Both the position numbers and the translations under genes were made by a program. Shown here piece by piece: positions 39,601 through 42,453 of a stretch of DNA of 64,000 nucleotides. The DNA is from a virus. Numbering within the stretch: the stretch's first letter is position 1; each line of letters opens with the position of its first letter. The stretch lies in IMG/VR virus record IMGVR_UViG_3300037493_001906, positions 54,099 through 118,098 of that record; one strand, 5' to 3'. The notes beneath the pieces were generated by a model. It saw only the letters and a list, made by a program, of their open reading frames with translations. It was not told the DNA's origin and made no database searches.

Positions 39601-39658
39601 TTTTAACTCTTTTATGTTCCTAACATAGAGTATAAAGAATGTTAAATACAAGGAGTGC

Positions 39659-39880
39659 ATGGTAGCTCAAACTCAAAAACTATTTATTATGCACAAATCA
39701 TTTTTAATTCAAAGACTTTCTGATGGATTATTTTATAACCTTAATGGGCAATGGGATAAAAGAATTATAGGATTAACTTCTAGTTTTGTTTCTAAAGAAG
39801 ATGCATTATCCTATTTAGAAAACATTTATGAAATAAATCAAGACTATACAATAGTTGAAATTTATTATTCTTTTAAGTAA
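39659..39880 (+). CDS. 73-aa protein
   Basis: The frame from ATG 39659 (MVAQTQKLFIMHKSFLIQRL) is preceded by AAGGAGTGC, one of the few Shine-Dalgarno-like sites in the window; a second ATG ten codons on (MHKSFLIQRLSDG) is also possible. The fold looks like a small beta sheet plus helix (FVSKEDALSYLENIYEINQD). Its stop lies 7 bases before the first stem of the structured RNA region. Confidence 0.65.
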   Translation: MVAQTQKLFIMHKSFLIQRLSDGLFYNLNGQWDKRIIGLTSSFVSKEDALSYLENIYEINQDYTIVEIYYSFK

Positions 39881-40236
39881 CAACTTTGAGTTCAGGGAAG
39901 ATAACTTCAAACCTGAACTTATTATCTAGAATTCTAGTTATTACTCACAGGTAAAACCTGTACAGATATACAGGCCCTATACTAGATAGGTTATACAATC
40001 TAATATGTAACTTCAATTGACAACGGCCTCAGTACGTGGAGTTCCTTAAGTCCAGCCAAGGTGTAATCAGGAATGATTGCTAGGGTCAGACTCCACCAGT
40101 TATTCTCAAACACTGCCACAAACTTAAACTTTATCATTACCTAATAAGAGAATAGGGATAAAGTTATTATATTTATAGAGTCTTGGGTTTCTTGATAGGG
40201 TTCCCAAGGCTCTATTCTCTTTGCACACTCATTAGT

Positions 40237-40392
40237 GAGCAGTTGTAATATGGGTAGTAGCAATGTGTCTACGTAATAGAACCTGTAACTTGCATAATAG
40301 CTCTACACTTCACTTTAGAGATTTAGGTAATCCATTAATTGGAATCCTGAAGTGTGTATCTATCAAGTAGTATTACAATTGAGTGCAGAGGG
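40237..40392 (+). ncRNA. Structured motif copy A
   Basis: The copy reads GAGC, then AGTTGTAATA (40241-40250) pairing with TATTACAATT (40371-40380), then GAGTGCAGAGGG. The enclosed 120 bases hold a further 8-base stem (40305-40312 with 40348-40355). Flanking GAGC and GAGTGCAGAGGG are identical in copy B. Confidence 0.72.
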
Positions 40393-40529
40393 GTAGTCCA
40401 AATTTAACTGATTATTAGACTTTAAATATTAGAATCAGTCCTTGAGAGTGGTGGTTTGTAGAAATACAATAAACTCTTATTTAATGCACCACAACTCACG
40501 TGGATATAAAGACTTCTTATAAAATATCG

Positions 40530-40546
40530 TACAGTTTGAATCTGTA
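40530..40546 (+). other. T-loop hairpin within the RNA region
   Basis: TACAG and CTGTA enclose the loop TTTGAAT, matching the T-loop consensus of tRNA. No acceptor or anticodon arm fits around it, so it is probably a tertiary-contact module of the larger RNA. Confidence 0.6.
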
Positions 40547-40660
40547 GATTGGGCCCAACGCAGGGATTTAAGATGTGAAACCACAATGATTAAGAAACAG
40601 AAACAATACAAGTAATTCTTGTTGGACACACAGAAACATTTAATCATTCTCCCAAGGGTG

Positions 40661-40756
40661 AGCAGTTGTAATAACTACAGAGCCACTGTATCATGAAAAC
40701 CTTTTATTTAGGGATACAACCTACTGACAATAGATTATTACAACTGAGTGCAGAGG
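40661..40756 (+). ncRNA. Structured motif copy B
   Basis: AGTTGTAATAA (40664-40674) pairs perfectly with TTATTACAACT (40735-40745), with the same GAGC before and GAGTGCAGAGGG after as copy A. The G-U pair of copy A is a G-C pair here, a compensatory change. The enclosed loop is about 60 bases, half that of copy A. Confidence 0.72.
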
Positions 40757-40829
40757 GTATTTAATTATTAAGCTCATAAAGATTGTATTTAAACTTATAA
40801 TAAATTAAACAATTTAAAACCAACTCAAA

Positions 40830-40961
40830 ATGGAAACACTCACTGTATTATTAGTAGCCACACTATGTACCATTGGTATGTTTGCTCTGGCAATAGGACT
40901 TGTAACATTAGCAATCAAGTTAGACACTTTTATTTATAACTACTTAAACAACTCAAAATGA
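40830..40961 (+). CDS. 43-aa membrane protein
   Basis: ATG at 40830 follows AACCAACTCAAA and opens METLTVLLVATLCTIGMFAL, then AIGLVTLAIKLDTFIYNYLN. One or two hydrophobic spans fill most of the protein. Its stop overlaps the next start (ATGA). Function is unknown; superinfection or host-membrane effects are guesses. Confidence 0.72.
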   Translation: METLTVLLVATLCTIGMFALAIGLVTLAIKLDTFIYNYLNNSK

Positions 40962-42278: not shown

Positions 42279-42386
42279 AGTCAGGTGGCGGAATTGGTAG
42301 ACGCAAGTATCATCATTACTACTGCGGGGGAGCCGATAATCAACGAAGGTAGGTCCCGTGTACAGGTTTAAATCCTGTCCTGACAA
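42279..42386 (+). tRNA. tRNA-Leu-like gene, abnormal anticodon/variable region
   Basis: An acceptor (AGTCAGG with CCTGACA, first pair mismatched), the D arm GCG...CGC with loop GAATTGGTAGA, and the T arm ACAGG-TTTAAAT-CCTGT are clear. The D arm is Leu-like. Between D and T arms there are 57 bases where about 33 are expected. The best anticodon-like stem (AGTA/TACT around TCATCAT) lacks U33, so the anticodon is unresolved. It could be a degraded tRNA, one with an insert, or a tRNA-like RNA. Confidence 0.6.
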
Positions 42387-42389
42387 AAT

Positions 42390-42453
42390 AGCCAAGTAGC
42401 ATACTTACTTATGTGATACTGTAAAAATGTGGGTTTGATTCCCACCTTGGCTA
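42390..42453 (+). tRNA. Short tRNA-like gene
   Basis: A perfect 7-base acceptor (AGCCAAG/CTTGGCT) and T arm (GTGGG-TTTGATT-CCCAC) are present, but only 32 bases lie between them, about ten too few for both D and anticodon arms. GCAT/ATGT can form a D-like stem; CTGTAAA looks like a Tyr anticodon loop but lacks a stem. It starts 3 bases after the first tRNA-like gene. It is probably truncated or a specialised tRNA-like RNA. Confidence 0.55.

Follow-up and report, generated by a model that had tools for sequence, protein, structure and literature searches.

A modular, domain-shuffled locus predicted to encode a large structured RNA in crAss-like phages

The gene-free locus and its modules

In the window (the whole 64-kb stretch of DNA analyzed here), TerL, portal and MCP match phage head-and-packaging families, and TerL is ~25% identical to Crassvirales TerL; from these similarities, we assign the window to an uncultured crAss-like phage. 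A hexamer coding scan, with the score trained on the long ORFs of these crAss-like phages, places the largest gene-free gap of the window (949 nt, the next being 501 nt) at positions 39881-40829, between a stop codon at 39880 and an ATG at 40830. ORFs within the gap score between -17.5 and +1.2, whereas the two genes immediately 5' of it reach 34.6 and 43.0, in agreement with an earlier reading of this DNA (hereafter the sequence-only reading) that had described the block as gene-free and dense in RNA structure; no protein frame spans it. The predicted fold of the + strand of the block has an energy of -224.9 kcal/mol (z = -3.4 relative to 20 dinucleotide shuffles); for the - strand, z is -2.7, again with dinucleotide shuffles. 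The folding energy is suggestive of a structured RNA, but the deciding evidence, in our assessment, is comparative, and it identifies most of the gap as a conserved, modular locus predicted to encode a structured + strand RNA (Table 1).

The region comprises two copies of a domain denoted M1 and at least four further modules, each of which is present elsewhere in other orders; from 5' to 3', the order is Mb, Mc, Md, a local hairpin, M1 type C, Me and M1 type B. All of these except the local hairpin recur in other contigs in other combinations. The modules adjoin almost without spacers, and the region begins within ~10 nt of a stop codon on its 5' side, with 72 nt separating its end from the next ATG; neither a ribozyme nor a promoter or terminator of note was found at its ends.

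Several of the smaller modules show compensated changes. The Mb stem UUCAGG/CCUGAA is replaced by UCUAGG/CCUAGA in one of the relatives (L098). Mc retains pairing through double changes in 7 of 20 predicted pairs among 10 sequences, and is located 5' of M1 in some contigs and immediately 3' of M1 in others. Md is shared by three loci (L163, L175 and L095) although their blocks are otherwise different. Me is mostly found directly 3' of an M1 domain, L274 being an exception, and the AGUC/GACU stem of its possible pseudoknot becomes AGCC/GGCU in relatives. The GNRA-capped hairpin noticed in the sequence-only reading (UUGUA-GAAA-UACAA) belongs to this module, and in relatives both the pairing of its stem and the GNRA character of its loop are kept. 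Also present as described are the T-loop-like hairpin (UACAG-UUUGAAU-CUGUA) and the duplicated stem motif, with GTGAGCAGTTGTAATA at 40235 and 40658 and TATTACAAYTGAGTGCAGAGGG at 40371 and 40736.

Table 1. Features of the modular RNA region and its surroundings (positions in the window)
Feature	Position	Strand	Evidence or details
Upstream 73-aa gene	39659-39880	+	Coding scan
Whole modular RNA region	39884-40757	+	Gap of coding scan; module matches
Mb, hairpin AGUUCAGG (39889-39896)/CCUGAACU (39912-39919)	39881-39923	+	In L106, L223, L253, L098
Mc, outer stem UCUAGU (39933-39938)/ACUAGA (39981-39986) around inner hairpin	39918-40000	+	~12 loci, varying positions
Md	40017-40173	+	91-92% identical over 139-154 nt in L163, L175, L095
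Local hairpin UAGAGUCUUGGG...CCCAAGGCUCUA	40175-40216	+	Sequence itself and fold
M1 copy 1 (type C)	40217-40392	+	Model R2, E = 0.0023; shared 3' motif; type-C relatives
M1 copy 1, P0	40217-40226/40383-40392	+	
M1 copy 1, P1 hairpin	40228-40239	+	
M1 copy 1, P2	40240-40249/40372-40381	+	
Me	40394-40477	+	In L282, L084, L027, L273, L263, L274
Me, possible pseudoknot	AGUC 40395-40398/GACU 40418-40421 with ACUGAUU 40407-40413/AAUCAGU 40433-40439	+	
Me, GNRA hairpin	40456-40469	+	Relatives: stem changes compensated, loop GAAA, GGAA or GAGA
M1 copy 2 (type B)	40482-40758	+	R2, 109 bits, E = 1.3e-25; R1, E = 1.2e-7
M1 copy 2, P0	40485-40489/40748-40752	+	
M1 copy 2, P1	40495-40499/40658-40662	+	
M1 copy 2, P2	40663-40672/40737-40746	+	
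M1 copy 2, M3 stem	40500-40503/40581-40584 and 40514-40519/40568-40573	+	
T-loop-like hairpin in variable M3 insert	40530-40546	+	Sequence itself
M1 copy 2, M3c stem	40585-40593/40640-40648	+	
M1 copy 2, pseudoknot	CCC 40651-40653/GGG 40755-40757	+	
tRNA-Leu-like element, 57-nt insert replacing the anticodon arm	42283-42387	+	One of 30 such elements
tRNA	42390-42453		36.5 bits, above Rfam threshold

The M1 domain

M1, the commonest domain, is a three-way junction with a pseudoknot that connects a loop to the 3' tail. The outer stem P0 (UGCAC/GUGCA) encloses hairpin P1, the stem of which varies while its loop is almost always the invariant UUCCCAAGG, and stem P2 (CAGUUGUAAU/AUUACAACUG), which carries a hypervariable insert at its end (~122 nt in window copy 1); the pseudoknot forms between CCC in the P1 loop and GGG in the 3' tail. 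Type B (window copy 2) differs in that P1 widens into a nested junction with two extra stems that bear inserts. Type C (window copy 1) has no CCC loop, and its 3' GAGGG pairs instead with an extended 5' strand, lengthening P0; the M1 3' tail thus has one of two partners. The combination of the P0/P1/P2 junction, the conserved loop and the 3' tail places both window copies in the M1 domain.

Covariation was assessed in two alignments, A1 with 36 type-A copies from which the insert was cut out (three stems and the loop-tail pseudoknot) and A2 with 37 type-B copies (two further stems). For stems that had been spotted by eye before counting, and with related rows counted more than once, 97.9% of the cells are paired in A1 (88.6% when shuffled), with double changes in 13 of 24 pairs (98 cells), and 95.8% in A2 (84.0% when shuffled), with double changes in 24 of 44 pairs (190 cells). 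Not one of 500 shuffles reached the values of A1 or A2, and slid controls pair at 29-50%. Because the type-A loci were picked by exact match to the 3' strand, its invariance in A1 is in part a product of the selection; for many A2 loci, the M3 motif served as the query instead. Compensatory changes include UGCGU/ACGCA and UGUGU/ACACA for UGCAC/GUGCA in P0, and CCUGA/UCAGG, UCUAC/GUAGA, CUAUC/GAUAG and CUAGC/GCUAG for CUCAC/GUGAG in P1; the CCC/GGG pseudoknot shows a single double change, CAC/GUG, in one locus. G-U pairs far outnumber A-C mismatches (19:3 and 44:16 in the two alignments), which identifies the + strand as the RNA.

Model R1 was built on type A only, and model R2 on 37 sequences that include window copy 2. 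The match of R1 to the window type-B copy (Table 1) is therefore independent of type B. In 47 loci collected through the M3 motif, which is unrelated to type A, R1 produced 41 matches (E<=0.01); the 252,780 bases of terminase loci that were searched contain no match. With two domains conserved and strong compensatory change across diverse relatives, the expectation of a large structured RNA in a crAss-like phage is borne out.

Carrier phages and genomic position

The carriers are diverse crAss-like phages with one RNA locus per genome and 1-3 copies, according to whole-genome searches. A homologous terminase was found in 36 of 50 carrier records, and its identity falls from 66% to 23%, so the RNA is spread over deep branches. 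In all 21 records in which both could be placed (G000, G001, G007-G009, G011, G013, G014, G016, G017, G020, G021, G026, G027, G030, G035, G036, G038, G046, G055 and G058), the RNA lies on the strand opposite the terminase, at the 5' side of the latter and ~4-31 kb away, that is, divergent from TerL. In the Crassvirales studied so far, early or middle expression is seen for regulatory and replication genes, and late expression for terminase and structural genes (PMC10136315); the position of the RNA thus suggests early or middle expression.

The seven named Crassvirales genomes searched, including crAss001 and phi14:2, have no copy (best match at E=0.9), which rules out a general presence in Crassvirales. 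Among 16 records collected by terminase, a copy was found in two, one of them weak, and was undetectable in 14, most of the 16 being fragments that end before the expected place of the RNA; a few that should extend to this place have no copy, so the presence of the RNA is patchy. A search for relatives through a 313-aa neighbouring protein returned none, and comparison with the DNA of named phages revealed nothing meaningful.

Module shuffling and variable inserts

The repeated 20-mer TTACAAYTGAGTGCAGAGGG, the 3' motif of M1, is present in at least 120 IMG/VR contigs; by our estimate, exact matches arising by chance in a collection on the scale of IMG/VR would number fewer than one. Nearly every match is preceded on its 5' side by TTAATGCACCAnnnCTCACTTCCCAAGGGTGAGCAGTTGTAAT, by the shorter form TTAATCAGCTCCCAAGGGTGAGCAGTTGTAAT, or by TTTGCACnnn...GTGAGCAGTTGTAAT, followed by an unrelated insert of 20-190 nt and then by ATTACAACTG and the 3' motif. 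The domains recur with varying order and number in other crAss-like phages. A module that is missing from the window, M2, includes a hairpin with the palindromic loop GUUGCAA, a candidate kissing loop, and is found with M1 in either order. A further module, M6 (ACCACAAGG...CUCAUCCUGUAAAGCAGGGGUUGACUUGUGG), recurs in L088, L025, L039 and other loci, usually just 5' of M2.

Of 408 inserts taken from four stems, most are unique (244 are without a relative in the set), but 15 matches connect inserts across stem types, such as M3c in L014 with P2 in L073 (97% over 38 nt). As units they fold weakly, with mean z of -0.7 to -1.0; the z of -2.5 for the M3c insert is trivial, the M3c stem having been included. 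The sequence-only reading had anticipated neither the shuffling of modules nor the hypervariability of the stem inserts. A close relative of the window phage, G058 (terminase 79% identical, the nearest with a copy), carries only one type-A domain, in other surroundings, so the locus turns over fast; because domains also occur singly in this way, the whole 870 nt would not be essential everywhere.

Identity of 91-95% between shuffled modules of otherwise different phages implies frequent recombination, and the P2 strands are strongly conserved inverted repeats, so an element acting at the DNA level could be considered, namely a recombination hot spot, a packaging or origin site, or the terminal inverted repeats of a small mobile element. 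This appears very improbable, given that the G-U tolerance is confined to one strand, that the conserved unit is a three-way junction with a covarying pseudoknot, that the orientation relative to TerL is fixed and that no transposase or integrase pattern was seen.

tRNA-like neighbours and nearby ribozymes

The tRNA-like pair reported downstream of the block is present, although it consists of one tRNA above the Rfam threshold and one tRNA-Leu-like body with an abnormal insert (Table 1). The RNA lies in a tRNA-bearing region: across the loci, tRNAs number 0.05-0.08 per kb at distances of 0.25-4 kb from modules versus 0.02 per kb at 4-8 kb. The 30 tRNA-Leu-like elements (including those in L043, L083, L070 and L052) have the acceptor, D and T arms in common (GUCAGGUGGCGGAAUUGG...ACAGGUUCGAAUCCUGUCCUGAC), and in 28 of them the canonical anticodon arm is absent, with a hypervariable insert of 30-112 nt in its place. 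Some of these elements are located directly 3' of an M1 domain.

Hatchet ribozymes were detected in five of the 50 carrier records (L001, L004, L013 and L025, corresponding to G001, G003, G006 and G015, and G048), in four of them on the strand of M1 and ~1.0-1.6 kb upstream of it. A twister-P1 match below the gathering score lies at positions 855-923 of L056, and hammerhead-like cores were found in L072 (position 2741, directly after M1 and 31 nt from the start of the M1 motif) and, close to RNA modules, in L018 (position 4057).

Comparison with known RNA families

Scans of the window and of relatives against Rfam, with all families including OLE, produced no match for the block, the only hit in the window being a tRNA downstream. 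Within the block, neither GOLLD (RF02032) nor ROOL (RF03087) matches at E<=5; across 48 records, no match exceeded the cut-off for GOLLD, nor for ROOL, for which no positive control matched in that scan. A full-text literature search on structured or non-coding RNA of crAss-like phages, with most subscription journals and preprints outside its coverage, yielded no description of this RNA.

The resemblance to the known large RNAs is one of setting. GOLLD is likewise a large phage RNA that is often found near tRNAs and has a conserved 3' and a variable 5' region (PMC12286853), a common setting rather than a sign of homology; its junctions and conserved sequences are different, whereas the domains described here are duplicated, shuffled and nested. 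GOLLD itself is a homo-oligomeric RNA cage. ROOL is a large phage RNA with multiple pseudoknots, located near tRNA islands and containing a linker without conserved sequence (PMC12286853), whereas the RNA described here has no fixed full-length consensus. OLE, a large ornate bacterial RNA, is dimeric via kissing loops (PMC12286853); the palindromic M2 loop of relatives could kiss similarly, but M2 is missing from the window. That the block encodes a diverged GOLLD or ROOL, an option left open by the sequence-only reading, is hardly tenable: phage origin, a size of ~0.9 kb, ornate structure, nearby tRNAs and the GOLLD-like division into a conserved 3' domain and a variable 5' part would fit, but the defining cores differ in sequence and junctions and the models find no match. 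The RNA thus appears to share the setting of GOLLD and ROOL but to belong to neither, and, because no other Rfam family matches either, we judge it to represent a new family of large phage RNAs, unusual in that its domains are shuffled.

A self-splicing intron or another known catalytic RNA is the least probable identity. Some groups of crAss-like phages are rich in group I introns (PMC10136315), but no group I or II intron or known ribozyme of Rfam matches the block, which lies between intact genes and not within one.

Y RNA and YrlA, which are bound by Ro60, combine a conserved stem with tRNA-like parts. The carriers differ in that a TROVE/Ro60 protein was found in none of 49 records, the window's own among them (a control genome matched), so that a partner of this kind is absent from these phage records; the host might supply a Ro60. 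An early-expressed TROVE protein is known from phage crAss001 (PMC10136315).

Possible function

We propose, with a probability of roughly 0.5, that the locus gives rise to a ~870-nt non-coding RNA of separable domains that is cut from a polycistronic transcript and acts in trans as a structural scaffold; this is the most likely of the readings considered. The RNA would be transcribed together with its neighbours, since the first module starts ~10 nt after a stop codon and there is no space for an intergenic promoter, and would then be trimmed, in some relatives perhaps by self-cleaving ribozymes. The conserved junction cores would determine the shape and bind to one another or to a shared partner, and the fast-changing arms would project outward and contact host-specific molecules. 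Three features favour a structural role in trans: the genes next to the RNA lack conservation, each genome has one such locus, and conservation falls on junction cores, not on a regulator of one gene.

With an ATG often only 30-50 nt beyond it, the 3' end of the RNA would also suit a leader, which counts against a role in trans. Each M1 could then be a cis-acting 5' leader or mRNA-processing element that influences the translation, the stability or the cleavage of the following mRNA, as the codirectionality of modules and neighbours (399 of 405) and the ribozymes near some relatives would also allow. We nevertheless consider this unlikely: the 202 genes located 3' of the modules fall into 127 clusters, so that neighbours differ from phage to phage and a single conserved regulated gene is ruled out, there is one locus per genome rather than one per operon, and the RNA is far bigger and more elaborate than a leader requires.

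The locus might also comprise several independent small RNAs, acting as decoys or sponges and built on conserved cores, with arms that track host RNases, toxins or defences and with the altered tRNA-like elements as part of the same set. The scarcity of related inserts, combined with matches between structural slots, the similar insert in place of the anticodon arm in the tRNA-Leu-like bodies and the free order of the modules are compatible with this scheme. We find it quite unlikely, however, given that the adjoining modules leave no space for separate promoters, that types B and C and Me tie neighbouring domains tightly, and that antisense matches between the window inserts and the genome of the phage itself do not exceed the chance level.

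A further reading that we put forward only tentatively is a new kind of RNA, combinatorial and domain-shuffled, in which a few conserved junction cores, among them tRNA bodies devoid of the anticodon arm, frame fast-evolving arms that are swapped between slots and phages, akin to a variable display made of RNA, directed against the host or acting on it.

Very few large structured phage RNAs are known so far, and the functions of GOLLD and ROOL are still open. A family unrelated to these by models but found in comparable settings would suggest several origins of large phage RNAs and a useful role for them. The modular build, which is missing in the known ones, provides hundreds of natural variants in which domains are added, removed or swapped and which can reveal the working parts; the domains are short (70-280 nt), so that each can be made and probed singly.

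Two minor observations concern the block and its upstream border. The block contains the palindromes CUAGAAUUCUAG (39926-39937) and UUGGGCCCAA (40551-40560), which may be RNA dimer contacts. The leader and start of the 73-aa gene (39603-39679) contain a hairpin, ACUC-UAUGU...ACAUA-GAGU, and are 79-95% identical in L042, L098, L120, L124 and L089; in L042, this leader stands directly 3' of an M1 domain.
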